A stretch of 36,327 nucleotides of DNA from Alphaproteobacteria bacterium (GTDB taxonomy: Bacteria > Pseudomonadota > Alphaproteobacteria > Bin95), in the NCBI GenBank assembly GCA_026710105.1, contig JAPORR010000065.1, positions 1-36,327 of the forward strand, written 5' to 3'. The notes beneath the pieces were generated by a model. That model was not told where the DNA came from and searched no databases. It saw nothing but the letters and a program-made list of their open reading frames with translations. Each line of letters opens with the position of its first letter. The stretch's first letter is position 1. Shown piece after piece: positions 12,677-35,351 of the stretch. The position numbers and the translations under genes are program-made.

Positions 12677-12688
12677 GCTTGCCTCCCA

Positions 12689-19185: not shown

Positions 19186-20313
19186 TCATCGCGTCCGCTC
19201 CCCGGCGACGCCGTGCAACGCCTGCAGGCGCGCAAGGTCCCGCGCGCCGATCCTTCCCTCTGAAGCCGCTTCGGTCGCCCTCAGCGCCAGACCGTTGCCC
19301 CTCTCGCGCAAGGCCTCCGCAATACGCCGCGCCCAGGCCTGGCGCGGCAGCTCCAGGAGCTCGTCCTTCAACCCCGCATCGAACACGAGCCACTCGCGGA
19401 GCGCCGTCCTGCCGCCCTTCGGGTTCGCCAGAAGCACCTGCGTCACAACCAGGTGCAGCATGTCGATCAGAGCCCCGCCACGCTCGTCCCGCTCTTCCTC
19501 CCGGAACTCCTCGAGCAGCCGCCTGATCGTGTTCGCCACCCCGATCGTGTGCGTCGTCGAATAGACCGCGATCCCGAAATTGCCGGCCGCCAGCGCCGCC
19601 TCGACCGTCTCCCGGTCGCGCGCCTCGCCCACCACCACCGCCGTCGGCCGCCGCCGCAGGCTCGCCCGCAATCCCTCCGCAAAGCTCTCCACATGCAGCG
19701 GGATCTCGGAGCTCGACATCTGCGCACCGGGTGCCTTCTTCACATTGGCGAACAGGAACTCGATCGGCGCCTCGTAGCTCTGGATGCGTCCGACGCCCAT
19801 CTCCAGCAGCCGGCGCGTGCCCGCCGCCAGCAGGGTCGACTTCCCCGAGCCAGGAACGCCCGTCACCAGGTTGAGGCCCGCGCACTCCTCCAGTGCCTCG
19901 ACGATCTCACCCTCGATCCCGAGTTCCTCAAGCGTCTGCGGCACCCCCGGCAGGATCCGCATCGTCACGTTGATCCCGAAACCCTGGGATACTTCCACCG
20001 CAGTCAGGTTGCAGCGGAACCGGATATCCCGCCCGCGCGACACCCGCACCGCGTAGCTGCAGTCGATGACCTTCCCGGACCGCAACAGGCCTTCCGCGGT
20101 CGCGCCTCTGATCCGCGCCACGATCTGCCCCATCACGATATCGTCCACCGCGCATGCCGTGGCGTCCCGGCAGCGTCCGTCCACCTCGATCACGACGGGC
20201 TCGGCCGTCTGGAACGACACATCGGAAGCCCCGAGCTCCCACGCCCAGATGAGAAACTCGTTCAGCCTCTCGGCCGGAAAGGAATGCGCCGCCGGCGGCC
20301 AATGCACCGTCAT
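19186..20313 (-). CDS. dotB: DotB/TraJ secretion ATPase
   Basis: 375 residues, the usual DotB length. The N-terminal PAS-like region (LGASDVSFQTAEPVVIEVDG) precedes the RecA-like domain with Walker A TGVPGSGKST at 151-160. The Asp-box area is near SYEAPIEF, Walker B-like VVVGEARDRET at 226-236 and the His box STTHTIG at 252-258. It is a PilT/VirB11-class hexameric ATPase that docks on the DotO ring and energises substrate transfer. ATG 20313 overlaps the upstream stop (ATGA). DotD-DotC-DotB order is conserved, but here the genes are separated by membrane-protein genes of unknown family. Confidence 0.94.
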   Translation of the reverse strand: MTVHWPPAAHSFPAERLNEFLIWAWELGASDVSFQTAEPVVIEVDGRCRDATACAVDDIVMGQIVARIRGATAEGLLRSGKVIDCSYAVRVSRGRDIRFRCNLTAVEVSQGFGINVTMRILPGVPQTLEELGIEGEIVEALEECAGLNLVTGVPGSGKSTLLAAGTRRLLEMGVGRIQSYEAPIEFLFANVKKAPGAQMSSSEIPLHVESFAEGLRASLRRRPTAVVVGEARDRETVEAALAAGNFGIAVYSTTHTIGVANTIRRLLEEFREEERDERGGALIDMLHLVVTQVLLANPKGGRTALREWLVFDAGLKDELLELPRQAWARRIAEALRERGNGLALRATEAASEGRIGARDLARLQALHGVAGERTR

Positions 20314-20813
20314 CGCACCCGCGCCCCCGGCAGAAGAAGCCAGAACGCCTTGACCAACGAACAGCCACGCTGGCGAGAGACTGTTGCCAGCGCCTGATAA
20401 TCCGCAGGTACCGCCACCACGACTCCGACGGCAAGAACCCCGCCGGCCAGCACGCTCTGCTCCGGAGATCCGAAATGAACCGCGCCGAATCCAAAGACAA
20501 AGAGCACAATCCGCGCGTCCCTGAACTCTATCTCGAACCCGTCATCTCCGTCGAAACCATCGCCCAGCTTCCATGCCAGAAACCACAGCATGCCGATCCC
20601 GAGCGCGTACATTCCCGTGAAAAACCCCAGCGGCCACAACAAATCCCCGCCCTTCAGTCCGCAAAGAACCAGCGCAACCAGCATCAACAGCGTCAGAAAG
20701 ATGGAGCCCTCGTAATCGTGACCCCACTCATCTCCGATCCCGACTTCATCTATCCCGTCGCCGACCGCTTCGGCCTTCCCAACACTCACTCCGAAATCCT
20801 TCTCGCCCGTCAC
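20310..20813 (-). CDS. Polytopic membrane protein of the recurring unknown family, between DotC and DotB
   Basis: 167 residues from GTG 20813, overlapping the DotC stop as GTGA and coupled to DotB by ATGA. An acidic N-terminus of about 35 residues ends in HDYEGSIF. Four helices follow: FLTLLMLVALVLCGL, WPLGFFTGMYALGIGMLWFL, IVLFVFGFGAVHFG and LAGGVLAVGVVVAVPADYQA. The C-terminal ATVSRQRGCSLVKAFWLL resembles the tails of the other membrane proteins in this window (helix, basic pair with Gly, then an amphipathic helix). It has no recognised family. Unlike its relatives it lacks an antisense ORF for a membrane protein. Confidence 0.65.
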   Translation of the reverse strand: MTGEKDFGVSVGKAEAVGDGIDEVGIGDEWGHDYEGSIFLTLLMLVALVLCGLKGGDLLWPLGFFTGMYALGIGMLWFLAWKLGDGFDGDDGFEIEFRDARIVLFVFGFGAVHFGSPEQSVLAGGVLAVGVVVAVPADYQALATVSRQRGCSLVKAFWLLLPGARVR

Positions 20814-21697
20814 GGCCCCGCCTCCGTCCAGACCGGCGGTCCCGAAACCGCCCCCTCACCCCGGAACACGAACCCGCGCCAATGGCGCGCCTGCAGTTGG
20901 AGCTCCGCAGGACGGCCCAGCCGCACCCGCCGTTCGCCGACGCGCATGACCCGCCCGTCGCCTGCCGTCGCCGCCTCGCTGACCTGGAGCTCCGGAGTGC
21001 CCACCATCCGGGCCTGATGCAGCACGCCCCAGCGCGCGAGCCCCTCAAGCACCCCGTTCAGACGATCCAGATCGGCCGCGAAGATCGCGTCCGCCTGCCG
21101 CGCGCCCTGGCCCCAACCCTCCGCGATCCAGCGCGCCCAATCCGCCTTCTCCTCGTCGGTGCGCGGGAACAGAACCGATACCGGAGGCTCCGGCTCCCTC
21201 CATCGCCGAACCAGGAAATCCCGCCAGTGCGGCGGCGCCGTTGCGAGCCGCTCGGACTCCATGATGCGAACCACGCGCGTCGCCGAGGCCGCGCGCTGCC
21301 CGTCGCGGCCCAGCCGGATCGCCTGCCTCGTCTCGCCCACCACGGGGGGCACCAGCGTGAAGCCGTGCCTGGTCTCGGTCAGACGCCGGAACCCGTACAG
21401 CCTGTCCAGATTCTCCGCATGCCGGGCGATTACCTTGTGCTCGATCTCCCATGATCGACGCGCCAGACCGCCCTGCGCCCCATAGGCCAGAGCGGCGGCG
21501 CGCATCGCCTCGCGGCGCTTCTCCTCCCCGAACTCGACCCCGAAGTCACCGCCCGGTTCCGTTTCCAGAAGCGCGGCGAGATCGCGCGGAACCGCTTCTT
21601 CCGCCCGGGCAACGCACAACCCCGCCACCAGGCACCAGGCGACCCAGAAAGCCGCCTTGCCCCATGGACCGGCCGGGAGGAGCGGACGGAGATTCAC
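20810..21697 (-). CDS. dotC: DotC/TraI outer-membrane assembly protein
   Basis: 295 residues. Family blocks are unmistakable: REAMRAAALAYGAQGGLARR, NLDRLYGFRRL, LVPPVVGETRQAIR, TAPPHWRDFLVRRW, EEKADWARWIAEGWGQGARQ and HWRGFVFRGEG. DotC sits in the outer membrane and helps place DotH. The start is GTG 21697 with GGGAGG seven bases upstream and GTGA overlap with the preceding gene. The signal peptide (AAFWVAWCLVAGLCVARAEE) lacks a standard lipobox, so the lipidation usual in this family is uncertain. Frame upstream of 21697 is shadow. Confidence 0.92.
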   Translation of the reverse strand: MNLRPLLPAGPWGKAAFWVAWCLVAGLCVARAEEAVPRDLAALLETEPGGDFGVEFGEEKRREAMRAAALAYGAQGGLARRSWEIEHKVIARHAENLDRLYGFRRLTETRHGFTLVPPVVGETRQAIRLGRDGQRAASATRVVRIMESERLATAPPHWRDFLVRRWREPEPPVSVLFPRTDEEKADWARWIAEGWGQGARQADAIFAADLDRLNGVLEGLARWGVLHQARMVGTPELQVSEAATAGDGRVMRVGERRVRLGRPAELQLQARHWRGFVFRGEGAVSGPPVWTEAGP

Positions 21698-22260
21698 CTG
21701 CCGGCCTCCCGACGCAGAGCCTCGACCAGGCTCCTGGTCAGAAAACCGCCGAAAACCAAGACGCAGAATGCCATCAACAGCCCAAACGCAAGCCCTTCTC
21801 GCAGCCCCCAATGTTCGGCTATCACCGGGTCTGCCAACCAGATGAAGAAAGCACCAAAGATGCCGAACAAACTGGTCAGAAATGTCAGCGACCAATTCAA
21901 ACATTTCCGCCCGAAAGCAGCCATATCCGGTGCCGTTCTATTTTTGGCCGGTTTCCTGTTGTTCATGGGAGTTGTAGCGTTCTTAATGTTCGCTATCGAA
22001 CTGCCCAAGCTCGGCGAAGGACCCGACCCGTACCGGTCTTTCACCTCGTTCATGTTCTTTTCCATAACGACCCTGTTTACGCCTCTCGGATTTCTGCTCG
22101 GCTGCTGCGCCATTCCTCGCACCGGACCGTTGCTCGTCGGCGGCTTCGCGATCGCATCGCTCGTCCTCGTCGCCCAGTGGTATTCATTTGTCGGCGCGGA
22201 CCTCCTGCAGATGACCGCAGACACCGTCTGGGAACTCCGCGGGCGCGCATACGGGCTCAA
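21694..22260 (-). CDS. Putative membrane protein upstream of DotC (start uncertain)
   Basis: The open frame is 188 codons from a TTG at 22260 (TTGA overlap, GAGGGAG six bases upstream). Only the last 76 residues, from ATG 21924, look like a protein: WSLTFLTSLFGIFGAFFIWL and FGLLMAFCVLVFGGFLTR, ending in a basic tail EALRREAGR. The first 110 codons are hydrophilic, low-complexity and antisense to a rightward ORF with better codon-position composition, so they may not be translated. The basic tail is loosely like the other unknown membrane proteins here. Overlaps the DotC start by GTGA. Confidence 0.45.
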   Translation of the reverse strand: MSPYARPRSSQTVSAVICRRSAPTNEYHWATRTSDAIAKPPTSNGPVRGMAQQPSRNPRGVNRVVMEKNMNEVKDRYGSGPSPSLGSSIANIKNATTPMNNRKPAKNRTAPDMAAFGRKCLNWSLTFLTSLFGIFGAFFIWLADPVIAEHWGLREGLAFGLLMAFCVLVFGGFLTRSLVEALRREAGR

Positions 22261-22294
22261 TTGCTTCTCCCTCGGTTTCCCCGCCCGTATCTGA
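21842..22294 (+). CDS. Putative rightward polytopic membrane protein opposite the leftward array
   Basis: Up to 150 codons from ATG 21842; an internal ATG at 21965 is possible. Four hydrophobic stretches are visible: AVLFLAGFLLFMGVVAFLMF, FMFFSITTLFTPLGFLLGCC, LLVGGFAIASLVLVAQWYSF and a weaker one before them. A hand count of the codons from 21965 gives G+C of about 75% at position 3 and 58% at position 1. This is the coding pattern for this strand and the reverse of that expected if only the opposite strand were coding. No clear ribosome-binding site precedes either ATG. It is antisense to the hydrophilic part of the leftward ORF 21694-22260. Confidence 0.45.
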   Translation: MKKAPKMPNKLVRNVSDQFKHFRPKAAISGAVLFLAGFLLFMGVVAFLMFAIELPKLGEGPDPYRSFTSFMFFSITTLFTPLGFLLGCCAIPRTGPLLVGGFAIASLVLVAQWYSFVGADLLQMTADTVWELRGRAYGLNCFSLGFPARI

Positions 22295-22652
22295 CCGCCG
22301 GCACGACGAGAGCCGTCCGCACCAGCGCCGCAACAACTGCACCCAACCCCAACAGGACCAGTTTCTCATTCGTCATGGTTCCGGCTCGCCACCAGCCGAG
22401 ACACAACCAGGCGGCGAAACCTCCGGCCGCCCAATCCAGCGCCACAAGGCCGGCCCCGAACAGCCGATCCATTCGTCTGCCGGCAGCCATTTCCGTCATC
22501 CGTCCGGTGGAACGCGGGTCGTCAAACCAGTCGAGACGCCCGGTCATGCGGCCGGCGTCCCCGGTCAGCGGTGCGCGGTCCGCCGCCGGCATGCCGGCAG
22601 GGCCCAATCGGCATTCGCGTGCGTTAACCATGAAAATGGAACGACAACTCAT
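22257..22652 (-). CDS. Chimeric membrane protein with a dotD-derived N-terminal segment
   Basis: 131 residues from ATG 22652, overlapping the upstream stop as ATGA. After ten residues the segment AGMPAADRAPLTGDAGRMTG leads into RLDWFDDPRS. This is nearly the C-terminus of the DotD protein encoded at 23337-23837 (AGMQAADRALLTVDAGRMTV, RLDWFDQVTGQ). The rest has two hydrophobic helices (GAGLVALDWAAGGFAAWLCL, LVLLGLGAVVAALVRTALVV) and a basic tail. The gene is therefore a duplication scar fused to a membrane-protein gene. It may be expressed because its start is coupled, but a function for the DotD fragment outside its domain is doubtful. Confidence 0.55.
   Translation of the reverse strand: MSCRSIFMVNARECRLGPAGMPAADRAPLTGDAGRMTGRLDWFDDPRSTGRMTEMAAGRRMDRLFGAGLVALDWAAGGFAAWLCLGWWRAGTMTNEKLVLLGLGAVVAALVRTALVVPAVRYGRGNRGRSN
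22525..22598. repeat. Partial duplicate of the dotD 3' end (copy 2)
   Basis: About 74 bases closely match 23359-23432, the 3' part of dotD, in the same orientation and 834 bases away. Matching runs include AACCAGTCGAGACGC, CGGTCATGCGGCCGGCGTCC and GCATGCCGGCA. The copy lies inside the gene at 22257-22652. Confidence 0.75.
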
Positions 22653-23236
22653 TCGAATGCATCCCTTCTTGTACCGGTCCACTCCCCTCCCGCGAATGCG
22701 GCCCGCAGAGAGACGCTGGCAGCCCTTGCCAATGACGTATTTGCCTGCCTCGCGACTATCGCGAGGCCAGCCCCCTCAACGACGGCTCCCAGCCATGCTC
22801 CAACCGTCAACAAGGGAAACACCGCCGCCGAAGACCCACCTGTCGTCCAACCCGCCCATGCCGCTCCGCCGAGCAATGCAATCCCCCGCCAAACCAGCAG
22901 CGTCTTCAACGTTTCACATAAAAACGGACGTTGTGCGTTCACGCGCGCCACCGATAACCGGATCGCAATGACCCACAAGAAACCGTAAAGAACCATCATC
23001 GATACAAGCTCTTCTGTCTCCGGAACGTAAACACCTATGGCAGGTGCAAACGGCAGAGCTATCAGTAACGCAGGCAATAAAATTAAAGACATAACCAAGG
23101 AGAAACCTGTGCAATGAGCGTAATCGAATGCATCTTCAACTGGGACCGATGCGGACCCCTTCTTCGCGAGGAGATCATCTTCTGGTCTCTCATCGTCCTG
23201 GGCGCTTCTACCGCCATCTTTCTTTTCCGGCACCAT
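22649..23236 (-). CDS. Polytopic membrane protein of the recurring unknown family (low-GC3 gene)
   Basis: 195 codons from ATG 23236, which has AAGGGA eight bases upstream, 100 bases after dotD. About 45 hydrophilic residues end in HCTGFSL. Hydrophobic helices follow: VMSLILLPALLIALPFAPAI, VSMMVLYGFLWVIAIRL, LLVWRGIALLGGAAWAGW and a last one near LLTVGAWLGAVVEGAGLAIV. The tail ARQANTSLARAASVSLRAAF matches the family pattern. Third-position G+C in the membrane part is only about 50% by hand count, far below neighbours such as dotB (about 83%), suggesting foreign origin or relaxed selection. The N-terminal 45 codons are antisense to a rightward ORF. Confidence 0.6.
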   Translation of the reverse strand: MVPEKKDGGRSAQDDERPEDDLLAKKGSASVPVEDAFDYAHCTGFSLVMSLILLPALLIALPFAPAIGVYVPETEELVSMMVLYGFLWVIAIRLSVARVNAQRPFLCETLKTLLVWRGIALLGGAAWAGWTTGGSSAAVFPLLTVGAWLGAVVEGAGLAIVARQANTSLARAASVSLRAAFAGGEWTGTRRDAFE

Positions 23237-23350
23237 GACAGTCTTCCCTTCATAAATCGGTGGCGTATCCCCTTTATCTGGGACAACAACGACCCGCTCT
23301 ATCTGGTCCCCGGTGGAGTTGCGTTATTGTTGCTGCTCATTGTCCTGTGA
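23114..23350 (+). CDS. Putative rightward small membrane protein (78 residues)
   Basis: ATG 23114 is preceded by AAGGAGAA about ten bases upstream, a strong ribosome-binding site. The product has two hydrophobic segments, FWSLIVLGASTAIFLF and YLVPGGVALLLLLIVL. G+C by hand is about 70% at codon position 3 and 53% at position 1, favouring this strand. It ends 14 bases inside the 3' end of dotD (convergent) and begins head-to-head within the 5' part of the leftward gene 22649-23236. No family is recognised. Either this ORF or the N-terminal extension of its opposite gene, or both, is real. Confidence 0.45.
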   Translation: MSVIECIFNWDRCGPLLREEIIFWSLIVLGASTAIFLFRHHDSLPFINRWRIPFIWDNNDPLYLVPGGVALLLLLIVL

Positions 23351-23837
23351 CCTGATCGAACCAGTCGAGACGCACGGTCATGCGGCCGGCGTCCACGGTC
23401 AGCAGCGCCCGGTCCGCGGCCTGCATGCCGGCATCCCTGAAGATATGAATGAGCGGCGCATCCTTCGCCTCGATCTCGACCAGCACCGGGGCCGGAGGCG
23501 AACGGCCCGCCGTCACCAGCGCATAACCGGCACCCGCAGCCAGCTGCCGCACCAGCTCCTCAAGCGGCCCGATGAAATCCAGCGTTACCTGCTGCAGAAG
23601 CTCTGGCGGCACATTGCGTGGAATGTCCTGCCCCCGGAGATCAGCCTCGGCCGAGCGCGTCTTCGCGAGCAGCGCCAGCGACCGGTCCGCACGCAACGCC
23701 GCCTCGGCCAGAAGCGCCTCGGCCGGATCCATGACCGAGCCTTCCTCCGGAACAGGACCGAAATCCAGAGTCTGGCAGCCCGACAGCGCCACCAGGCCCG
23801 CAATCATGAGTCCTGCCGCCGCTCCGGTCGCACTCAT
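23337..23837 (-). CDS. dotD: DotD/TraH lipoprotein
   Basis: 166 residues from ATG 23837, overlapping the upstream stop (ATGA). A lipoprotein signal peptide ends in the lipobox VALSGC at about residue 20. The DotD core follows: VPPELLQQVTLDFIGPLEEL, VRQLAAGAGYALVTAGRSPP and PVLVEIEAKDAP, a secretin N0-like fold in known structures. DotD forms the outer-membrane ring of the type IVB channel with DotC and DotH. In R64 TraH precedes TraI and TraJ as DotD precedes DotC and DotB here. Part of its 3' end is duplicated at 22525-22598. Confidence 0.85.
   Translation of the reverse strand: MSATGAAAGLMIAGLVALSGCQTLDFGPVPEEGSVMDPAEALLAEAALRADRSLALLAKTRSAEADLRGQDIPRNVPPELLQQVTLDFIGPLEELVRQLAAGAGYALVTAGRSPPAPVLVEIEAKDAPLIHIFRDAGMQAADRALLTVDAGRMTVRLDWFDQVTGQ
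23359..23432. repeat. dotD 3' segment that was duplicated (copy 1)
   Basis: Source segment of the direct repeat at 22525-22598. The sequence is intact dotD coding here, which makes this the likely parent copy. Confidence 0.75.
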
Positions 23838-24841
23838 TGCGCCGCACTCCCGACATCCGTCACCACCAGCCACCTGTTCGGATAGGCCGTCGCTGAAAGC
23901 GCACGCCGCATCGGGCCGATCGCGAGCAGCGCATCCGCCGCCGCCAGGAAACCCGCCTCCTCCGTCTCACCCGCCGGGAACGCCGCTGCAGCACCGACCT
24001 CGTATTGACGCTCGCTCTTCCAGGCCAACTGCCAGCCTGCGCGCTCCGCCCAGGAGCGAAGCACGTCCTCCACGGTCGCATGCGTGTCGGGACTCACTTC
24101 CCATGGTTCCTCCGGCACCTCCGCCTGTCCTTCCACCGGCAAAGCAGCGTCCACTGCTCCCGGCTCCCCTGGAACCTGAGCCCGCCGATCCTCGGCATCG
24201 ACGTTCTCCCCTGTCTCCGGAGACGCTTCCGGCAGCCCTTCAGCGACTGCCGACATCGGTACCTCCTCGATGACGGCCGACGACGCCATCTCGTCGCTCG
24301 CAACCGCCGCCAGCACTTCCACGGCAACGCCGCCGGGGATCCGCTCCGGACGACGCTGCTCGACATCCGCATAGCGGTAGAAGAGAAGACGCCCGTCCTC
24401 CCAGCCCCAGTCGTAACCGGACAGCCGCGCGACCTCGTCCAGGACCGCCGGCACCGCCTCCGTCATGGACAGACCGAACGACACCGGGTCCTTCCTCGCG
24501 ACGTCACCGCCGAGAACGCGGCCCGGGCGCTCCTCGACCGACGCCCGCACGCCCGCCAGATCCGCCACGCGCCCTACAAGATCCCGCAAGGGCAGCGGCG
24601 CGAGTTCCTTCACCTCGATCACCAGCTCCGCAATCTCCGGGGGCAAATCCCGCGACTGTGCTGCGACCGTGACCGTTGCCGCGATCGGCGCCCAGGGCTT
24701 GCGCTCGTCGCCCCGGGCGGCCAGCACTGCCAGCACGAACGCCATCGGCAGAAGCAGTCCCGCGCCCATGCGAACCGCCCGGCGCGCTGTCCGGTCCCCG
24801 CAAGGGGAACCATGGTGACCGTCTCTATTCTCTCGCCGCAC
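23834..24841 (-). CDS. TcpQ-domain (PilL-like) exported protein
   Basis: 335 residues from GTG 24841 (GGGGG six bases upstream, 17-base overlap with the preceding gene); ATG 24769 is the alternative start. A signal or anchor segment (GAGLLLPMAFVLAVLAARG) is followed by a secretin-type N-terminal module (VIEVKELAPLPLRDLVGRVA, PVSFGLSMTEAVPAVLDEVA). After an acidic linker comes a C-terminal TcpQ domain: DTHATVEDVLRSWAERAGWQ, LAWKSERQYEV and NRWLVVTD. In R64, PilL carries this C-terminal domain. It probably assists an outer-membrane channel. Coupled to dotD by ATGA. Confidence 0.75.
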   Translation of the reverse strand: MRRENRDGHHGSPCGDRTARRAVRMGAGLLLPMAFVLAVLAARGDERKPWAPIAATVTVAAQSRDLPPEIAELVIEVKELAPLPLRDLVGRVADLAGVRASVEERPGRVLGGDVARKDPVSFGLSMTEAVPAVLDEVARLSGYDWGWEDGRLLFYRYADVEQRRPERIPGGVAVEVLAAVASDEMASSAVIEEVPMSAVAEGLPEASPETGENVDAEDRRAQVPGEPGAVDAALPVEGQAEVPEEPWEVSPDTHATVEDVLRSWAERAGWQLAWKSERQYEVGAAAAFPAGETEEAGFLAAADALLAIGPMRRALSATAYPNRWLVVTDVGSAAQ

Positions 24842-25841: not shown

Positions 25842-26089
25842 CGGGCTGCTCCCGTACAGCGCCGCAAGGCCGTCTCGTTGTTCTCATCCGTCCCGATCCG
25901 GTTCCAGACCGAGTCGTTCGAGATCAGCGCGCCCAGATACGAAACCCTCATCACCTGGCCTCGCTTCCAGGACTTGAGGACTTTCTCGCAACTCATGCGC
26001 CGGGCTCCCGAAGCTGCCGTCTCCACGGCCATGAAGCCCGAGAGCAGGCATAGAAAGTCAGCCCGGATCGTCTCCTTCAGACCGTTCAT
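25838..26089 (-). CDS. Small exported or membrane-associated protein
   Basis: 83 residues from ATG 26089, which overlaps the upstream stop (ATGA) and is itself coupled to the nuclease gene. The N-terminus has a moderately hydrophobic segment (DFLCLLSGFMAVETAASGA) that may be a signal peptide. Then RRMSCEKVLKSWKRGQVMRV and a polar C-terminus with one cysteine (ALRRCTGAAR) follow, so two cysteines lie in the probable mature part. No family is recognised. The tight coupling argues that it is translated. Confidence 0.55.
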   Translation of the reverse strand: MNGLKETIRADFLCLLSGFMAVETAASGARRMSCEKVLKSWKRGQVMRVSYLGALISNDSVWNRIGTDENNETALRRCTGAAR

Positions 26090-26763
26090 CGCGCAAGACT
26101 CCACGAACGGGAGCCTTTGGGATCGAAGACCGCCACGAGCGCCTGCCGGAACGTCCTGCCCGTCCGCGCTCCCAGCAAGGCGAGCCATGTCCCCGCGACC
26201 GCGCCGCAAAGCCCGACCGCCACACTGGTGATCAACAGGGCGCCAAACGCATTTCCGGACATGAGAAGAGCCAGCGCCGTCACCAGCAGCGCCAGCACCG
26301 CCTGCGTCATGTCCATCCCGCCGCCCGAGTGGTTACGCCGAAACGCGGCATAGAAGACCGTCAGGGAAACCGTCAGTGACAGACACGCAAAACCTGCAAA
26401 CCACAACGCAACCGGGCCGCAGACCGCTGCGGTCATCGCGAGAAGCACCACCAACAGGCTTGCCTGCATGAGGGAACGGCTGACATGGACGATCTCCGGG
26501 CAATCGGCCGCTGCCTCAATGCATCCATCGACACCGCCGTTGCCAACACACTCAGCTTCGTCTCTGTTGGCCTTTTCGCCACCTTCGTTATCGCGACGCT
26601 TGCGATCGGGCTCATCCTGCTCTCGGTGTCCGGTCTCAAGCGCAATGCCAGGATCGGCGGTGGTCTTTTCTGCGCTCTCGGCATTGTTCTCTTTTTTCTC
26701 GGCCAGAATGTCGGGAGCCGCGCTTCGGCGTCCCTGCTGGATTGCGTCTCTTGAACCGCTCAT
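26086..26763 (-). CDS. Membrane protein of the recurring unknown family, downstream of the prepilin peptidase
   Basis: 225 codons from ATG 26763, which has GAGGG six bases upstream and follows the peptidase stop by nine bases. Residues 1-98 are hydrophilic and acidic, ending HVSRSL. ATG 26469 then opens the membrane part with four helices: MQASLLVVLLAMTAAVCGPV, FAGFACLSLTVSLTVFYAAF, VLALLVTALALLMSGNAFGA and LLITSVAVGLCGAVAGTWLA. The tail LGARTGRTFRQALVAVF fits the family pattern. The hydrophilic half is antisense to a rightward ORF. The full-length start has the better ribosome site, while the internal ATG has none. Confidence 0.55.
   Translation of the reverse strand: MSGSRDAIQQGRRSAAPDILAEKKENNAESAEKTTADPGIALETGHREQDEPDRKRRDNEGGEKANRDEAECVGNGGVDGCIEAAADCPEIVHVSRSLMQASLLVVLLAMTAAVCGPVALWFAGFACLSLTVSLTVFYAAFRRNHSGGGMDMTQAVLALLVTALALLMSGNAFGALLITSVAVGLCGAVAGTWLALLGARTGRTFRQALVAVFDPKGSRSWSLAR
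26485..26754 (+). CDS. Putative rightward small membrane protein (89 residues)
   Basis: ATG 26485 lies nine bases after GAGGGAA. The product has two strong hydrophobic segments, VGLFATFVIATLAIGLILLS and GGLFCALGIVLFFLG, with a basic loop KRNAR between and a cysteine near each end. Codon-position G+C by hand is about 72% at position 3 and 60% at position 1. It is antisense to the hydrophilic N-terminal half of the leftward gene 26086-26763. The AGGGAA-N8-ATG start is shared with the ORFs at 27804 and 28726. Confidence 0.45.
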   Translation: MDDLRAIGRCLNASIDTAVANTLSFVSVGLFATFVIATLAIGLILLSVSGLKRNARIGGGLFCALGIVLFFLGQNVGSRASASLLDCVS

Positions 26764-26772
26764 CGCCCGCCC

Positions 26773-27357
26773 TCACCGAAGCCCGATATCGACGAGGCCT
26801 GTCGCCGCGAGAACGAAGCTCGCGCTGACGGCCATGCCCGGCCCGAGCGGTGCATGGCCCTGGAGCCAGGACCGGCCCCGCCGGCCCTGAACCCAGCCAT
26901 GGCGGACGAGTGCCAGGATCGCGCCGAACGACAACGCACCGAGAAGGCCCCAGGGTCCGAGCAGCCAGCCCATCACCGAGAACAGCAGCACATCGCCCGG
27001 ATAGAACGGCCAGCGCCGCCCGAGCGCCTCGGCGAGCGCCAGCGGCACGGCCCCGACCAGAAGCCCCGTGCCCGCGCCGAGCAGCGCCCATGTCAGCCCC
27101 GTCCCGGCATCCGGCCCCAGCACCAGCGGCTGCCAGAGCGCCCCGGCGCCGATGAGCGGAAGCAGCCACCAGGAATCGATCCGGTATCGCCGGGCGTCGA
27201 CCATGCCGATCCGCCAGAGCGCGCCACACGCCCAGACCAGCACGATCAGGGTGAACGCCGTCGCATCGGGCAGGCCCGCCAGCAGGCCCATGCCGCCCAT
27301 GAGGAAGGTGACGCCCATATAGACAAGCGCAGGCTCGGGAGATCTGGCAGGAGTCAT
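26773..27357 (-). CDS. pilU: A24 (type IV) prepilin peptidase, PilU/TadV-type
   Basis: 194 residues with about six membrane helices. The two catalytic aspartates of the family are present: D54 in MVDARRYRID (followed by LLPLIGAG) and D122 in the GD motif of FYPGDVLLFSV. It lacks the N-terminal cytoplasmic methylase domain of PilD, as expected for TadV/PilU-type short peptidases. It should cleave the leader of the pilins encoded at 31673-32206, 30430-31668 and 29357-30421. Start ATG 27357 overlaps the upstream stop (ATGA). The first 32 codons were duplicated and survive as the start of the chimeric gene at 28055-28285. Confidence 0.88.
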   Translation of the reverse strand: MTPARSPEPALVYMGVTFLMGGMGLLAGLPDATAFTLIVLVWACGALWRIGMVDARRYRIDSWWLLPLIGAGALWQPLVLGPDAGTGLTWALLGAGTGLLVGAVPLALAEALGRRWPFYPGDVLLFSVMGWLLGPWGLLGALSFGAILALVRHGWVQGRRGRSWLQGHAPLGPGMAVSASFVLAATGLVDIGLR

Positions 27358-28058
27358 CGCCCGTCCCTCCCGAAGCGCGCCGTCCAGTAGCGCTCCTGCT
27401 CAGCCCGTTCCCCGCACGACACGTCCCGAAAGGCCACGAAAAAACCGACACCGCGGCGCCCGGCAACCAGCGCAAGCCAGGCGCCGTCCGCAGCGCATCC
27501 GAGCGCCAGCGCCGACATGGCGATCCAGCCCGCCAAGCCCTCTGTCGCCCCGCCGCTGTTGAAACAGAATGCCGCCGCCATAAACACCAGGGCGTACCGG
27601 CCGCCGCCGGTGCGGTCCGGAACCGGATGCGCTCTTTTCCTGCGATGGATCCGGCGCTCCAGGGCAAAGAACAGGACAACGCCGGCGATGTAGCATCCGA
27701 GCCCGCCCAATACCTGCCACGGCCGCATGTGTTCCGGCTCGGCCAGATCGGCTATCAGCAGCATGATCGCCGCACAGGCCGACACGAACAGGGAATGGCT
27801 GCAATGAAGGGGCTCCCACCCGAATTCTTCGAATTCATGTCCGCGCAGCGCATCATTTTCGTTCTCGTCTTTGTCGAGGTCATCGTGACGTTTGTCGGAT
27901 TCCTCGGCTCGCTCGCCATTGCCGTTACACGGCGACAATCCAATCCGTTTGGGACCGCCTGTAGCGTCCTCTTCGGCCTTGCCTTCGTATGGGGTCTTTT
28001 CCAGTTGAACTGATCTGCCAGACCGGCGCCCCCGGAGAAAATCGCGCCATCCCGTCAT
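27354..28058 (-). CDS. Membrane protein of the recurring unknown family (duplicate copy B)
   Basis: 234 codons from ATG 28058, coupled by ATGA to the upstream chimera and by ATGA to the peptidase. MTGWRDFLRGRR is shared with copy A. A hydrophilic region to residue 84 follows, then HCSHSLF. Four helices come next: FVSACAAIMLLIADLA, LGGLGCYIAGVVLFFALE, YALVFMAAAFCF and GLAGWIAMSALALGCAADGA. The tail WLALVAGRRGVGFFVAF and RYWTARFGRDGR closely match copy A and resemble 34926-35351. No ATG lies just before the first helix, so a full-length product, or a GTG start inside the helix, is required. No known family is recognised. Confidence 0.6.
   Translation of the reverse strand: MTGWRDFLRGRRSGRSVQLEKTPYEGKAEEDATGGPKRIGLSPCNGNGERAEESDKRHDDLDKDENENDALRGHEFEEFGWEPLHCSHSLFVSACAAIMLLIADLAEPEHMRPWQVLGGLGCYIAGVVLFFALERRIHRRKRAHPVPDRTGGGRYALVFMAAAFCFNSGGATEGLAGWIAMSALALGCAADGAWLALVAGRRGVGFFVAFRDVSCGERAEQERYWTARFGRDGR
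27804..28013 (+). CDS. Putative rightward 69-residue membrane protein (copy B)
   Basis: ATG 27804 lies eight bases after AGGGAA. The product MKGLPPEFFEFMSAQRIIFV continues through a long hydrophobic stretch (VLVFVEVIVTFVGFLGSLAI) and a second one (VLFGLAFVWGLFQL). It has exactly the same length as the ORF at 28726 in the sister repeat, with the stop at the same place and shared GL-PE and FGLAF, although most residues differ. G+C by hand is 71% at position 3 against 57% at position 1. It is antisense to the N-terminal part of copy B. Confidence 0.45.
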   Translation: MKGLPPEFFEFMSAQRIIFVLVFVEVIVTFVGFLGSLAIAVTRRQSNPFGTACSVLFGLAFVWGLFQLN

Positions 28059-28285
28059 GATCCCTCCTCCCAGACGCCGAATGTGGTCAGCAGGAGGCGG
28101 CACCAGCGCTCAAGCTCTGCCTCCGGGCAGATCTCCGGGCGGAGCGTCCGCACCGCCGAGCCAACCTCCGCCCGCTCCCGGGTCCATGCGCCCAGCTCTT
28201 TCGCATCGGGAAGACCCATGCCGCCCATGAGGAAGGTGACGCCCATATAGACAAGCGCGGGCTCGGGGGAGTGCGCCGGGGTCAT
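28055..28285 (-). CDS. Chimeric gene: prepilin-peptidase N-terminus fused to periplasmic-protein C-terminus
   Basis: 76 codons from ATG 28285 (ATGA overlaps at both ends). Residues 1-25 (MTPAHSPEPALVYMGVTFLM, then GGMGL) copy the first helix of the prepilin peptidase. After PDA the sequence switches to KELGAWTRERAEVGSAVRTL and on to FGVWEEGS, the C-terminus of the protein at 28977-29363. It is the junction of the tandem duplication. Coupled starts mean it is probably translated, and it may matter only for keeping downstream translation coupled. The C-terminal part keeps both cysteines of its parent. Confidence 0.65.
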   Translation of the reverse strand: MTPAHSPEPALVYMGVTFLMGGMGLPDAKELGAWTRERAEVGSAVRTLRPEICPEAELERWCRLLLTTFGVWEEGS

Positions 28286-28980
28286 CGCCGCTTCTCCCCG
28301 AAGAGCGCCGCCCAATGCCGTTGTTGCGCAGTCGGCACGCTGACCTGGAGCGCCCGCAGGGCTCCCCATAGGCCAACCCCACGGCGGCCGGCGACAAGCG
28401 AAAGCCACGCACCGTCCGCCATGCTTCCGAGAACCAGCGCCGACAACGCGATCCAACCCGCCAGACCCGCCTCGCCGCCCAACACGCAGAACACGATTGC
28501 CACGACCATAAGCGCCTGACGGCCCGTTCCGAACGGGTCCAGAACCGGAATCGCCCTCTTCCTTCGGTGCAATCGGCGGTCCAGGGCAAAGCAGGCGAGA
28601 ACCCCGATGAAATATCCCAAGAGTCCGCCAAACACATGCTCCAGCTGCATATGTCCCGGCTCGACAAGGTTCACAACGGCCAACACCATCGCCGCGATCG
28701 CCGACAGAACCAGGGAATAGCCGCCATGCATGGTCTCGAACCCGAAATCATGAATTACATCGCTATGCTCCGCACCATCCTTGCAATCGCTCTGGTTGCT
28801 GCGTTGCTGAGCGTTTGCGGGCTCTTGTTGATGTCCGTCGCTCCGAGGATGTGTCGATCGATCTCTTCCACTTGGACCATCTACGGCATCGTCTTCGGCC
28901 TTGCGTTCATAATCGCCACCATCGCGTTCAGCTGACCGGCGAGTGCGGCGCCCCCGGAGAAAATCGTGCCATCCCGTCAT
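28282..28980 (-). CDS. Membrane protein of the recurring unknown family (duplicate copy A)
   Basis: 232 codons from ATG 28980 (ATGA overlap with the periplasmic-protein gene). MTGWHDFLRGRR and a hydrophilic stretch to about residue 83 precede MHGGYSL. Helices then follow: VLSAIAAMVLAVVNLV, VFGGLLGYFIGVLACFALD, ALMVVAIVFCVLGGEA and GLAGWIALSALVLGSMADGA. The tail is WLSLVAGRRGVGLWGALRAL and HWAALFGEKRR. ATG 28731 could start a 149-residue version with no good ribosome site. The hydrophilic part has only about 45% G+C at third positions by hand count, unlike the membrane part (about 73%), and is antisense to a rightward ORF. Confidence 0.6.
   Translation of the reverse strand: MTGWHDFLRGRRTRRSAERDGGDYERKAEDDAVDGPSGRDRSTHPRSDGHQQEPANAQQRSNQSDCKDGAEHSDVIHDFGFETMHGGYSLVLSAIAAMVLAVVNLVEPGHMQLEHVFGGLLGYFIGVLACFALDRRLHRRKRAIPVLDPFGTGRQALMVVAIVFCVLGGEAGLAGWIALSALVLGSMADGAWLSLVAGRRGVGLWGALRALQVSVPTAQQRHWAALFGEKRR
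28726..28935 (+). CDS. Putative rightward 69-residue membrane protein (copy A)
   Basis: ATG 28726 lies eight bases after AGGGAA. Product MHGLEPEIMNYIAMLRTILA, then hydrophobic IALVAALLSVCGLLLMSV and IYGIVFGLAFIIATIAFS. By hand count codon position 3 is 72% G+C and position 1 only 45%, a strong contrast in favour of this strand. Start and length match the sister ORF at 27804. The ATGCAT at 28726-28731 also supplies the internal leftward ATG of copy A, so the two would be head-to-head. Function unknown; small membrane proteins in transfer regions are sometimes entry-exclusion factors, but nothing specific shows that. Confidence 0.5.
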   Translation: MHGLEPEIMNYIAMLRTILAIALVAALLSVCGLLLMSVAPRMCRSISSTWTIYGIVFGLAFIIATIAFS

Positions 28981-29363
28981 GATCCCTCCTCCCAGACGCC
29001 GAATGTGGCCGGCAGGAGGCGGCACCAGCGCTCAAGCTCCGCCTCTCGGCAGATCTCCGGGCGGAGCGTCCGCACCGCCGAGCCGACCTCGGCCCGTTCG
29101 CGGTTCCACGCCCCCAGCTCCTTCTGCACGGCCAGCAGGCGGCGCATGCCGGCAACCTCGCGCGCCAGAGCCTCGCGCACCTTCAGCCCTTCGAGGCGGG
29201 TTTTCGCCCAGTCGTTCCGAGCCGGCGCGGCATCCGGCTTGCCCGCCGGGTCCTGCGCCGGGTCCTCGGCCGGGATCGCATCCCTTGCGGCGCCCGGCAT
29301 CGCCGCCTGGCCCGCCAGAGCGAGCAGCGCCGCGAGGGTAACCATGGCGGTGCGCCTCAGCAT
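28977..29363 (-). CDS. Periplasmic protein downstream of the PilV-like genes
   Basis: 128 residues from ATG 29363, overlapping the PilV-like stop by seven bases; ATG 29345 is an alternative. The signal peptide MVTLAALLALAGQAAMPGAA is followed by a short acidic linker and a helical domain: WAKTRLEGLKVREALAREVA, GMRRLLAVQKELGAWNRERA. The C-terminus contains two cysteines (RPEICREAELERWCRLL). The family is unknown to me. Its last 50 codons are duplicated in the chimeric gene at 28055-28285. Position suggests a pilus accessory protein. Confidence 0.65.
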   Translation of the reverse strand: MLRRTAMVTLAALLALAGQAAMPGAARDAIPAEDPAQDPAGKPDAAPARNDWAKTRLEGLKVREALAREVAGMRRLLAVQKELGAWNRERAEVGSAVRTLRPEICREAELERWCRLLPATFGVWEEGS

Positions 29364-30421: not shown

Positions 30422-30429
30422 GGCCCCCC

Positions 30430-31668
30430 TCACTGTAACGCCGGCTCGCAACCGGTGCAGCCGCCCGTCGTGACGACACCGGTGAACGAACCCGCATTCG
30501 CGCCGAGAGCGCCGCTGACCGAAAGCACCGCCGCCCGGGCTTGTCCCGAGGCCTCGAGAGCGCCGCCGACATCCAGTCGTCCGGTCACATCAAGGCTGCC
30601 TGCGCTGGCCTCGCCCGCCACGGCCAGCGCCGTGTCCGAAGCGGTGAGCCCCGTCCCGACCGACAGCAGCTGCGGGATGTTGAAGACCTGTGCCGGCGCA
30701 CCCGCATGGCCGAACCGGAACCCGCCATCCGCCCGGAACGCCGTCGCCGGAATGTGGCCCCCGAACTCCATGCTGCCGGGCTGTCCGGTCCGCCCCACCG
30801 TCACATTGCCTGCAATCTGTGCCGGCGTTCCTGCCGTTCCCGCGAATTGCCCCTGCCGGCCCACGCCCGCATCGACACCGGTGACACGGCTGGCGTTCTG
30901 TACCTCGTAGCAGCGCCGGGTATCCGCCAGCGTCGCATCGCGGCAGTCCTCGCCTGCGACCACCGAGACCGGGCTGTCGATCTCCGCTGCCGGAAGCAGC
31001 GCCTGGCCAATGGCGGCCGCATTCGGGCCGAACAGAAAATCCGTCTCCATGCGCGCCAGCTCCGGACGCCCGCTGATCGCACGCCGGTGAAGACGGTCCT
31101 CGTCATGCCCGATCCCGAAGTCCGCCGTCGCGAACAGCGAGCCCGACGGCAACGCTCCGAGCACGGCCCGTACCGCCGGCAGCCGGTCATGCATCACCGT
31201 CGTCTCACCGCCTGCCTTGCCCACAAGGTCGAGCCCGCCCATCACCGCACCCGCGCGCAAGGCCGGCTCACGGAACGAAAGTTCCGCCCCCGAAAGCGCA
31301 CAGGCCGCCATGAGCACGCCGTCAACCACAACCGCCCCATAGGCCGCCGTTGCGATCTCGCCGCCGGCGCGCACAACCGTGCCGAAGCCGGCCGGCAGGA
31401 GAGACCAGCCCTTCAGTTGCGCGGGTGTCACCACCCCCGCCGCCGTCACAAGGCCCGACTGGACCGCCCGGTGGGCCGCCCGACAGGTCATCGCCCAGAT
31501 GCGGCCCCGCTCGCGGTCGATCTCCGCGAGGCGCAGCTCCTCCTGCTTGCGCTCCCAGGCCGCGAGCACGATCACCACCGTCACCGTCAGGAACAGCGCG
31601 CCGACAGGCAACGCCGCTCCTCGACGGGCACCACGGCGCAGCCGGCAAAACAGCGATGACCGCGTCAC
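30430..31668 (-). CDS. pilV: PilV-like minor pilin / tip adhesin (first copy)
   Basis: 412 residues from GTG 31668, five bases after the pilin stop. A basic leader RLRRGARRGAALPVG precedes the helix ALFLTVTVVIVLAAWERKQ. The middle resembles the pilin-fold body of PilV (VVTPAQLKGWSLLPAGFGTV, YGAVVVDGVLMAACALSG). The C-terminal region GLTASDTALAVAGEASAGSL and LSVSGALGANAGSFTGVVTT is repeat-like, ending TGGCTGCEPALQ. Together with the adjacent copy it gives two different adhesin-type proteins in one operon. R64 reaches such diversity by shufflon inversion; here it appears fixed. Confidence 0.8.
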   Translation of the reverse strand: MTRSSLFCRLRRGARRGAALPVGALFLTVTVVIVLAAWERKQEELRLAEIDRERGRIWAMTCRAAHRAVQSGLVTAAGVVTPAQLKGWSLLPAGFGTVVRAGGEIATAAYGAVVVDGVLMAACALSGAELSFREPALRAGAVMGGLDLVGKAGGETTVMHDRLPAVRAVLGALPSGSLFATADFGIGHDEDRLHRRAISGRPELARMETDFLFGPNAAAIGQALLPAAEIDSPVSVVAGEDCRDATLADTRRCYEVQNASRVTGVDAGVGRQGQFAGTAGTPAQIAGNVTVGRTGQPGSMEFGGHIPATAFRADGGFRFGHAGAPAQVFNIPQLLSVGTGLTASDTALAVAGEASAGSLDVTGRLDVGGALEASGQARAAVLSVSGALGANAGSFTGVVTTGGCTGCEPALQ

Positions 31669-31672
31669 CGGC

Positions 31673-32206
31673 TCACCCGAACACGAAGGTCAGGGCGTTG
31701 CCCGCAGCACCATTGGCGCAGTTGGTATTCAACCAGGCGATGTTCCGCACCACTGGTGCCGCGGTGGTGACCGTCGCCGGCGGGGCCGTGCCAACGAGTA
31801 TGTTCACAATCCCCGAGCCGGCCCTCGTCCGGCCCGCATAGGCCTGGCCCAGATCCTTGCAGGTCTCGTTGTCCAGATCATCGAAGGTGATCGCGAAACG
31901 ACCGCTGTTCCCCCGGATCGCCACCGCACCGCCAAATGCATGCTGGATCGTCTCCGAGCCGGACGAGCCCACCTTGGCGCCGTCCGGGATCTTCCCGAAC
32001 CCGCGCACGATCGGCACCAGATCCGCGTTGGACCCGTAGCTGGCCTGGCCCGAATAGATCCGCTCGACATTCGCGCGCAGCGTGTTCAGCAACTCGATCG
32101 ACTCGGCCTCGTTCAGCCGCGCCGTGATCCCGTTGTAGATCCCGACCACCGCGACGATCGCGACAAGGCCCGCCACGACCGACAGCAATACTCCAATAGG
32201 GTTCAT
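31673..32206 (-). CDS. pilS: PilS-like type IVb major pilin
   Basis: 177 residues. A very short leader MNPIG precedes the hydrophobic helix VLLSVVAGLVAIVAVVGIYN, then LNEAESIELLNTLRANVERI. The globular part has the PilS pattern YGSNADLVPIVRGFGKIPDG, FGGAVAIRGN and FAITFDDLDNETCKDLGQAY. The two cysteines (ETCKDL, NTNCANG) would form the C-terminal disulfide loop. Start ATG 32206 has AAGGAG close upstream, 12 bases after the GspF-like stop. There is no glutamate at mature position 5, unusual for pilins. Confidence 0.85.
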   Translation of the reverse strand: MNPIGVLLSVVAGLVAIVAVVGIYNGITARLNEAESIELLNTLRANVERIYSGQASYGSNADLVPIVRGFGKIPDGAKVGSSGSETIQHAFGGAVAIRGNSGRFAITFDDLDNETCKDLGQAYAGRTRAGSGIVNILVGTAPPATVTTAAPVVRNIAWLNTNCANGAAGNALTFVFG

Positions 32207-32218
32207 ACTCCTCTCCTT

Positions 32219-33286: not shown

Positions 33287-34929
33287 ATGCTCCGCTCCGC
33301 GCCTGTGACGAGCACCGGCTTGCCCGCGCGGCACGTGTCGCCCCCGAATACTGCCCACGCCTCGCCGATATCCGCGCCCTTCAGCATCGCGTCCGCCGGA
33401 TCCACCCGGCCTTCGCCCACAGCGCGCCAGATCTTTCGACCGATCGGCACGCCACCCATCTCGGTCATCCAGTGGTTCCAGGCACCCACCGCATCCTTTT
33501 TCCGTACGAAACCCAGATAACCGTCGTCGGGGACGATCCACTCCGCCACCGCCAGCGGGCGCACATAGCCCGCCCAGGCCGCCAAAGAGAGCGCCGACTG
33601 ACCCGACTTGCGGCATTGCGGACAGCCTTCCGGATTGCGGTAACGCACACCCGGACCCAGAAGACCCGCCAGTTCCCTCGGAAGGTCCCGGCCCTCCGGA
33701 AGTTGCGTATGCGAACACGCCGGACAGAGCAGCGGCACAAGCGTCTGCTTCAGGAGCAGGCGGATATTGCCGGGCTTCGTCACCTCCGAGACATTCACCC
33801 CGAGATCCATCAGGCGGAACAGGATGCCGTTCGCCGTGTGAACATGGATCGTCGTCCAGATCTGGTGGCCCGAGTCGATGAACTGCAACACCTGCTGCGC
33901 GCCGGCCATGTCGCGGATCTCGCCCACCATCCCCGAGGCCGGATGAACCCGCACGAAATGCATCAGTGCCGCCGCGAAGCCGAGACCGCGCTCCTCGCCC
34001 AGCCCCCGCGTCCCGGCCGCGATCTGCACCGCGCCCGGTATGTCGTATTCGACCGGATCCTCCAGCGTCACCATGTTCAGCCGATGCCTGTGCTCGGCCA
34101 TCTGCAGGTTCAGATTCACCGCCAGCGTCGTCGACTTGCCGTCGCCCGTCGTCCCGCCGATGAAGATCCCGCCATATTTCGACATCCGGATCTCGCGGAA
34201 GAGGGACGCCACCTCCGGCGTGAACCCCAGATCCTCCAGGGTCTTGTCGCCGCCTACCTGCTCCCGATAGAACAGCCGCATGTAGAGGTGATGCCCCTCC
34301 GGCTCGTGCGGGCCCGCCTCGCAGCGCAGCGCCCCGATCTCCTCCGGCAGGGGAAACGTCTCCGAACGCCGCACGCTGAACCCCTGGAAGCTCGCCCGCT
34401 GCAACGAGGTCTGCCGCGAACCCTCGTCCTTCACGAAAAACAGGAACCCGAAGGCCTGCTCCGCCTCCCGCACCGTCATGTCCGAGCCGAGAGGCAGCTT
34501 ACGGTCGTTCACGATCGCGAACACACGACAGGCGTTCGGACCCTTCTCGAACACGACGTCCGAAGCCCGGGCCCTGGCCGCCTCAGTGAAGAGCCCCACA
34601 AGCCCCTCCACGATCCGCGGGTTCACATCCAGGCTTTCGTCCCGAACCCGATTGCCGCGCCAGACCTCCGCGATCTCCTGAAGCGTCCCCGCCTCTTCCC
34701 GCATCTGGCCCCGCACCGCGCCCGTGCGCTGCAGCTCGACCAGAAGTTCCCGCAACTCCGGGTCGTTGGCATAGCCCTCCGCAATCAGCACCCGCCCGTC
34801 CGACCACACCGCGCAACGCTCACGGAAGCCCTCGTCCATCCGGTCCCAGCGCAGAAGACCCGACGGCATCACCTCCGGCGGCTTCTCCTTGAACAGGAGC
34901 CGGCGCCAGAACGAACGGCGCACCGTCAT
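33283..34929 (-). CDS. pilQ: GspE/PilB-type pilus assembly ATPase (R64 PilQ-like)
   Basis: 548 residues from ATG 34929 (ATGA overlap). Walker A FIGGTTGDGKSTT lies near 256-267, the Asp box VTLEDPVEYDIPGAVQI near 285, the Walker B-like SGMVGEIRDM near 331 and the His box IWTTIHVHTAN near 352. A four-cysteine zinc site, CPACSH near 402 and CPQCRKSG near 438, is typical of GspE-class ATPases. It powers pilus extension. The N-terminal region is long and lacks membrane segments. Confidence 0.92.
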   Translation of the reverse strand: MTVRRSFWRRLLFKEKPPEVMPSGLLRWDRMDEGFRERCAVWSDGRVLIAEGYANDPELRELLVELQRTGAVRGQMREEAGTLQEIAEVWRGNRVRDESLDVNPRIVEGLVGLFTEAARARASDVVFEKGPNACRVFAIVNDRKLPLGSDMTVREAEQAFGFLFFVKDEGSRQTSLQRASFQGFSVRRSETFPLPEEIGALRCEAGPHEPEGHHLYMRLFYREQVGGDKTLEDLGFTPEVASLFREIRMSKYGGIFIGGTTGDGKSTTLAVNLNLQMAEHRHRLNMVTLEDPVEYDIPGAVQIAAGTRGLGEERGLGFAAALMHFVRVHPASGMVGEIRDMAGAQQVLQFIDSGHQIWTTIHVHTANGILFRLMDLGVNVSEVTKPGNIRLLLKQTLVPLLCPACSHTQLPEGRDLPRELAGLLGPGVRYRNPEGCPQCRKSGQSALSLAAWAGYVRPLAVAEWIVPDDGYLGFVRKKDAVGAWNHWMTEMGGVPIGRKIWRAVGEGRVDPADAMLKGADIGEAWAVFGGDTCRAGKPVLVTGAERSI

Positions 34930-35351
34930 CGCAAGGTCCTCCCGTAAAGGGCGGCCCACTGAGCGCGCCATGCGTCCCGGCTCTCACGGAACACGACCCC
35001 CACCGCCCGCCAGGGTGGAACCTCGCGGCGCAGCGATATCACTGCGATCCAGCCGCCGTCGGCCAGACCACCGATCGCCAGTGCCGCCGCCGCAATCCAG
35101 CCACCAAGCCCGACTGTCGCCGGATCTCCAGACCACAGGAACGCCAGCGCAACCGTCAGCAGGCCGATCCTGACATCAGCCAGAACATCCCCGGCGAACC
35201 ACTTCGCTACCGCCTGCCCCGGATCGAACTCCCCGGACAGCCCCGCAAGCCCGTTCGCCCGGGCCCCCGCCGCCTCCAGACGCCGCCAGACAACCGGACG
35301 CCCGGATTCGAATTCCGCCGCGCGCTCAGCGTCGGTACGGGTCTCCCTCAT
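34926..35351 (-). CDS. Small membrane protein of the recurring unknown family
   Basis: 141 residues from ATG 35351, coupled by ATGA at both ends between the PilP-like and ATPase genes. A hydrophilic N-terminus of about 55 residues precedes two helices, RIGLLTVALAFLWSGDPATV and GLGGWIAAAALAIGGLADGG. The tail WIAVISLRREVPPWRAVGVV and AQWAALYGRTLR lines up with the tails of 28282-28980 and 27354-28058. This is the shortest clear family member and has no opposing ORF, so it shows that the family is genuinely leftward-coding. Function unknown. Confidence 0.7.
   Translation of the reverse strand: MRETRTDAERAAEFESGRPVVWRRLEAAGARANGLAGLSGEFDPGQAVAKWFAGDVLADVRIGLLTVALAFLWSGDPATVGLGGWIAAAALAIGGLADGGWIAVISLRREVPPWRAVGVVFRESRDAWRAQWAALYGRTLR

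Follow-up and report, generated by a model that had tools for sequence, protein, structure and literature searches.

Variable islands of small membrane protein genes with putative nested antisense partners in an IncI/Dot-Icm-type conjugation operon

Introduction

Why are genes of a conjugation machine that are normally neighbours separated by a series of small membrane protein genes? This question is raised by a contig of 36,327 bp (JAPORR010000065.1, G000:C117; hereafter the window, i.e., the whole stretch of DNA analysed) from a 3.35-Mb alphaproteobacterial assembly, in which an IncI/Dot-Icm-type transfer system and an R64-like pilus cluster are encoded on the minus strand. Six such genes, named here M1 to M6, lie in the junctions of this operon. 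The answer that we propose is that they form modular islands, that most of these islands carry a putative second gene (B) nested on the opposite strand, and that they have a role in specificity; taken as a whole, this account is the best explanation of the data, and our confidence in it is evenly balanced.

Comparisons were made with assemblies of the same genus, in which the sister assembly G004 (including record JAJEIH010000005.1; contigs C56, C84, C11 and C12) and assembly G001 (contig C553) supplied intermediate M sequences. The assemblies used are fragmented. Because the independent loci are few and related to one another, the p-values given below are only indicative.

A family of small membrane proteins

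The original prediction had assigned six minus-strand genes to one family on account of a shared layout and C-terminal motifs such as W-(I/L)-x-x-(I/V)-x-x-R-R, and the open reading frames (ORFs) and motifs are present as described. Searches with single sequences joined M1, M2 and M3 firmly (M2 and M3 share 49% identity with a BLASTP E value of 4e-77, and both hit M1, at 1e-14 to 1e-15), gave weak or borderline matches for M4 and left M5 and M6 undetected. With intermediates from the relatives, a core profile detected M5 at 0.0025 and, in relatives, M6-type proteins with E values from 6e-5 to 0.01. Reciprocally, M5-type and M6-type profiles recovered other M members in profile-profile matches. 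In a leave-clade-out test, in which the profile was built without the whole subgroup of the gene sought and was searched among 1216 ORFs, all six genes were recovered and outranked the best non-family ORF, with E values of 2.7e-16 (M1), 3.5e-22 (M2), 1.1e-18 (M3), 1.4e-10 (M4), 3.7e-5 (M5) and 6.1e-4 (M6). On this comparative evidence, M1 to M6 almost certainly constitute one lineage-specific family of small inner-membrane proteins, as had been claimed. The non-members closest to the M profiles (E 0.01-0.09) belong to a second small membrane family ('MSEGLGLE...'), which is found at the PilU|nuclease junction in L012 (~12080-12790), L011 and L035, the site of M4 in the window.

Among the M members, the membrane part of M3 was modelled with high confidence, from only 17 sequences, as a bundle of four long helices followed by an amphipathic one at the C-terminus (predicted local distance difference test score 88, predicted template modelling score (pTM) 0.79), the latter being predicted to lie on the cytosolic side. 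The common layout would be one of four transmembrane (TM) helices with an amphipathic tail, as in the M3 model. M1 is an exception in which just the final two helices are present, although all four are found in its 250-aa ortholog (L012:3882-4634).

Within the order, 18 copies of the family occur in 14 genomes, and three of eight congeners possess it. Every copy whose surroundings were read in these 14 genomes is confined to this type of operon. A seventh copy in the window's own genome, which the original prediction had missed, lies on another contig (G000:C132; L010:1611-2302) between PilO and a large secreted protein and is frameshifted before the first TM helix (TM1), for which decay and an assembly error are both possible.

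Against Pfam, NCBIfam, PHROGs and PADLOC, only matches below the curated cut-offs or with poor E values were obtained, and the Pfam and NCBIfam searches gave no match to machine subunits of the IcmT/DotE type. Similarly, tblastn of M3 against PLSDB plasmids gave no match, a pattern search with the M alignment in viral contigs found no relative, and profile A1, run over 385 genomes of the class, matched its own genome only. The M profile found nothing below E 0.2 among sequences of solved structures, and the best Foldseek match of the M model was at E 0.76. Z scores of up to 8.4 to transporter halves in VIA-align were rejected as a sign of kinship, such values being common for helical bundles.

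Gain, loss and divergence of the islands

The machine genes matched in the window are a PilQ-type ATPase, PilS, TcpQ, DotD, DotC (T4SS_TraI), DotB and DotH, together with DotA/TraY, DotG and DotI; the names PilP, PilR, PilU, PilV and DsbC-like are weaker, being based on partial matches, synteny with R64 or similarity of layout. The tra/pil region of the IncI1 plasmid R64 encodes the same machine (DotA/TraY, DotB/TraJ, DotC/TraI, DotD/TraH, DotG/TraO, DotH, DotI and PilN-PilV) but differs in that traH-traI-traJ (DotD-DotC-DotB) is uninterrupted, as is pilP-pilQ, and a search of the R64 ORFs with the M profiles gave no match. Empty sites are also found within the genus: the X|PilU and PilP|PilQ junctions of G001 are empty, and in G005 DotD-DotC-DotB, PilP|PilQ and X|PilU are all without an island. 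The contiguous R64 genes and the empty congeneric sites bear out the view that M genes split pairs that are normally adjacent, and the empty sites, the order-level survey and the leave-clade-out profiles agree that one family appears repeatedly in the gaps of a conserved machine.

Contigs C56 of G004 and C553 of G001 are 94% identical in DNA along stretches of 2.7 and 2.6 kb on the two sides, and their DotD, DotC, DotB, TcpQ2 and single-strand DNA-binding protein (SSB) are 95-98% identical in protein, whereas the M6 proteins reach only 61%. G001 contains in addition an island of ~760 bp (M5 and B5) after TcpQ2 and one of ~725 bp between DotC and SSB; a short shared tail before SSB suggests that the latter was lost from C56. 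These two elements with nearly identical transfer proteins differ mainly in their islands. Between the window and element C12, DotD and DotC are 78-79% identical and M6 32%. Such comparisons indicate that M islands are modular units that are gained and lost, and that they diverge far faster than the neighbouring genes.

These observations bear on the explanation that M is an accessory part of the pilus or transfer machine (a scaffold, a regulator or insulation between co-resident related machines), with variation arising by co-evolution with the machine. M is exclusive to this operon, and overlapping stops and starts couple its translation to that of its neighbours, which would fit such a part. 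Nevertheless, congeners that have this machine lack M at most of the sites or at all of them, and near-identical machines hold different island sets, so that this explanation appears unlikely.

Part of the repetition is local. DNA self-comparison of the window reveals a tandem duplication with a unit of ~930 bp that contains M2 and M3, and independent insertion of these two genes was dropped as an explanation. The flanks of the units (the 3' end of X and the 5' end of PilU) reach 93-98% identity per 45-bp step and lie near 95% where they match best, against 52-67% for the M bodies. Either M alleles have diverged far faster than their flanks, or they may have been swapped between elements through recombination in the flanks. 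The 'repeated insertion' of the original prediction is thus borne out in the sense that modular islands are gained and lost, with the exception of M2 and M3, which stem from a tandem duplication.

Other genes occur at these and further sites of the operon in relatives. For instance, an SSB gene lies between DotC and DotB in G004 (L012:16939-17382) and G001 (the equivalent in L035), at the M6 site of the window. The PilP|PilQ junction, the M1 site, holds in G002 (C326) a reversed gene for an AAA/NACHT-like ATPase (L037:15131-16651, minus strand), whose sense strand is open for 504 aa, though probably not coding. Upstream of PilP, opposite-strand coiled-coil proteins with one C-terminal helix and a weak CCDC90-like match are found (L012:2454-3194, L035 of G001 and L037:13106-13510), and they are repeated in G002. 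In G005 (C120), a reversed toxin-antitoxin (TA) block that is flanked on each side by a PilV-type gene of the operon (L040:12954-15245, minus strand) comprises a helix-turn-helix regulator and HicB-like, HI1420-type antidote, Gp49-like and HicA-like proteins.

Putative genes nested on the opposite strand

Most opposite-strand ORFs with at least two predicted helices sit in the segments preceding TM1 of M genes. These ORFs, here called B, would encode two-helix membrane proteins of 50-90 aa and are antisense to M2, M3, M4, M5 and most of the relatives with a long polar region; they had escaped the original prediction. It is very probable that most islands carry B as a second gene, nested before TM1 of M and with its own ribosome-binding site. 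Where it is long, the 'polar N-terminus' of M, formerly regarded as a protein feature, is most probably in large part the complement of B, and that description is mostly superseded. M genes without a nearby B (M1, M6, S56M6 and G1M6) have short leaders.

In 11 of 12 B regions, the GC content of the antisense frame follows the order of codon positions that is usual for coding DNA, third > first > second (means 0.73, 0.61 and 0.45), and the order in the sense frame is reversed. This reversed phase differs from that of 263 windows of reference genes (p=6e-8) and from that of the TM segments within those M genes (p=8e-5). In addition, the serine of the M motif His-x-x-x-Ser-Leu is near-invariant and is encoded by TCC at 8 of 10 B-bearing loci, where its antisense GGA forms part of an AGGGA element, or of one like AGGAG, located 8-12 nt ahead of the ATG made by the His codon. 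The His codon opposite the B start is CAT in eight of eight cases; this agreement carries only modest weight, since CAT already makes up 56% of the His codons in reference genes and the loci are not independent (p about 0.01). Conservation of the start is weaker at two loci, with TTG as the start in C11 and only ATT in S56a.

The B5 frames of the window and G001 have 78 codons each, without an indel and with identical start and stop. Their antisense identity (57%) exceeds the sense identity (44%), and the sense frame opposite B5 holds a stop in the window copy; in the control of eight reference genes, sense identity was the higher in all. Codons for the same sense amino acid differ between the two copies in 5 of 22 cases within the overlap, compared with 51 of 83 outside it (Fisher p=0.0016), while four-fold sites alone, too few in number, gave p=0.34.

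Could the antisense ORFs be by-products of polar, GC-rich sense coding, with only M being real? The complement of a polar codon (NAN) is a hydrophobic one (NTN), and stops are scarce where GC content is high. When the sense proteins were recoded with host codon usage, the antisense frame stayed open in 85-98% of the controls and showed two helices in 0-43%, so that polar composition and high GC account for the openness and for part of the hydrophobicity. They leave unexplained the reversed GC phase, the placement of Shine-Dalgarno (SD) element and start, and the substitution pattern, in which antisense identity is not below sense identity, synonymous changes are fewer and a sense stop lies within the conserved B5 frame. 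A mere by-product is accordingly improbable. Besides the recoded controls, several other points count against nested genes: M1, M6 and several relatives carry no B, B proteins are too divergent to be joined by sequence beyond subgroups, the structure model of B5 is only moderate (pTM 0.46), and no sigma-70-like promoter for B was found in a scan that is weak for this genome. Weighing both sides, we still favour B as a gene, and B is presumably expressed.

An invertible segment, which as in the R64 shufflon would supply M with an alternative hydrophobic N-terminus, was also considered, as a codon-aligned antisense frame would remain open once inverted. However, B has its own SD element and start, and the idea was rejected as no inverted repeats of at least 12 nt flank the B regions of M2-M5; it is now hardly credible.

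A further case of opposite-strand coding may be found in a split membrane gene between M5 and DotC (21694-22682), also missed by the original prediction. In G004:C11 this gene is intact as a single 137-aa ORF with four TM helices, to which the G001 halves match at 3e-14 and 1.6e-6 and the first half in the window at 8.8e-4; the second half in the window gave no convincing match to this ORF (best 0.015, not co-linear). Its layout implies that helices 2 and 3 can likewise be separated by an opposite-strand gene. The opposite-strand proteins of the split gene in the window and G001 are similar in layout, and their alignment is not significant. Yet another arrangement, which supports B as a gene independently of M, occurs in C12, where a B lies opposite the TcpQ1 leader and adjoins the 3' end of an M5-type gene without a polar leader.

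Small proteins encoded antisense within a longer ORF, as proposed for B, are exemplified by ano of E. coli O157:H7 (PMC5960689; reviewed in PMC7457138). Cases of the ano type are single and come with expression data, whereas B nesting recurs at about a dozen loci of one family and is based on comparison.

Table 1. Features of the M islands and associated genes in the window
Feature	Position	Strand	Description
M1	34926..35351	-	Member at the PilP|PilQ junction; TM1-2 and the antisense gene of its 250-aa ortholog are absent
M2	28282..28980	-	4-TM member between X and PilU; upstream copy of tandem pair
M3	27354..28058	-	4-TM member; downstream copy of tandem pair
M4	26086..26763	-	Divergent 4-TM member downstream of PilU
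M5	22649..23236	-	4-TM member between DotD and split gene
M6	20310..20813	-	Member between DotC and DotB; no antisense gene; stop overlaps DotB start
B2	28726..28935	+	Putative nested antisense ORF, 69 aa, 2 TM; AGGGA 9 nt before ATG
B3	27804..28013	+	Putative nested antisense ORF, 69 aa, 2 TM; AGGGA 9 nt before ATG
B4	26485..26754	+	Putative nested antisense ORF, 89 aa, 2 TM; AGGGA 9 nt before ATG
B5	23114..23350	+	Putative antisense ORF, 78 aa, 2 TM; AAGGAG 11 nt before ATG; overlaps DotD 3' end
Upstream duplication unit	28212..29124		3' end of X, M2, 5' end of PilU; 71% DNA identity overall, flanks far above M
Downstream duplication unit	27284..28202		3' fragment of X, M3, 5' end of intact PilU
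Duplicated DotD 3' fragment	22522..22599	-	90% identical to 23356-23433; in front of split gene
First half of split gene	22257..22682	-	ORF with first two helices
Antisense ORF	21842..22294	+	150 aa, 3-4 TM, between halves of split gene; coding-like GC phase 0.55/0.44/0.70
Second half of split gene	21694..22260	-	Last two helices and polar leader complementary to antisense ORF; extends to DotC
DotA	5845-8016		Not adjacent to the M genes, which span 20310-35351

Possible roles of M and B

Several related elements reside in one genome in G004, namely C56, C84, C11 and C12. The variability of M in a transfer operon, within genomes of this kind, would be typical of systems that confer specificity, entry exclusion among them. 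An accessory function common to the family, with exclusion as one example, had been suggested by the original prediction; it is plausible and would fit the hypervariability. We tentatively propose, at well below even confidence, that the islands give each element a specific identity and serve in self/non-self discrimination (exclusion or immunity). M would be made together with the transfer operon, and B, needing its own promoter, while the operon is silent. Since the two transcripts are complementary, B would be reduced during transcription of the operon. In the membrane, B and M might act to exclude or tolerate related elements, and shuffling of alleles between conserved flanks would change the specificity.

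B and the operon occupy opposite strands of one DNA segment, and each should therefore interfere with the other when expressed, much as in excludons. There, complementary transcripts of two gene sets allow mutual exclusion (PMC4179725, PMC10936155), which is likewise conceivable for B and M, with the difference that in M/B the coding regions themselves overlap. Carried further, the islands could represent a new class of membrane self/non-self (conflict) module, in which a hypervariable 4-TM protein and a nested antisense 2-TM partner are expressed in a mutually exclusive manner and multiplied across the junctions of one operon. This step is more speculative still.

One of the nearest known parallels is the entry exclusion protein ExcA of IncI1 plasmids, which is likewise a small accessory protein of the membrane and belongs to this class of conjugation system; allelic ExcA proteins are reported to recognise different segments of TraY (PMC8923210 and references therein). 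The parallel has its weaknesses. ExcA is a single gene beside traY, whereas M is not adjacent to DotA/TraY; the helix layouts of the two differ; and ExcA was not among the best matches of any M profile against the R64 ORFs. Because M is no relative of ExcA by profile search, the exclusion claim concerns what M works like.

Nearly as good a reading, though doubtful when taken by itself, is a toxin/immunity or addiction pair, in which B would be a small hydrophobic membrane toxin and M its membrane immunity partner, the nesting tying the pair together and stabilising the element. Nearly all B genes are located within or next to an M, an M without B resembles an orphan immunity gene, and the fast divergence would fit; in G005, moreover, a different junction of this operon holds typical TA genes in reverse orientation. 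M and B, however, showed no similarity to any known toxin or antitoxin family. Four to five pairs per element exceed what stabilisation needs, and the B opposite the TcpQ leader departs from the pairing, though it lies next to an M. Self/non-self discrimination is retained as the preferred reading, at the tentative level stated above.

Neighbouring genes

Two other features of the operon were recorded. A Staphylococcal-nuclease-like secreted protein is encoded within it at 24825-25841 and is kept in G001 and G004:C84. Two PilV-like tip pilins lie in tandem at 29357-31668, each of them with a Cys-containing tail at its end (SCSGC, GCTGCE); their match to the shufflon N-terminal family falls below the cut-off of that family.

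Implications

To our knowledge, bacteria offer few well-supported examples of protein genes nested antisense to others, almost all of them isolated. Here, one pattern of nesting is found throughout a gene family, at about a dozen loci from three genomes of a single genus, and comparison provides evidence that both strands are coding; this recurrence makes the functionality of such overlaps directly testable. It also calls for caution, as 'polar N-terminal domains' in genes of this kind can be complements of hidden genes. The islands reveal that conjugation operons of the IncI/Dot-Icm type contain a rapidly evolving accessory layer that has escaped annotation and may govern which elements share a cell.

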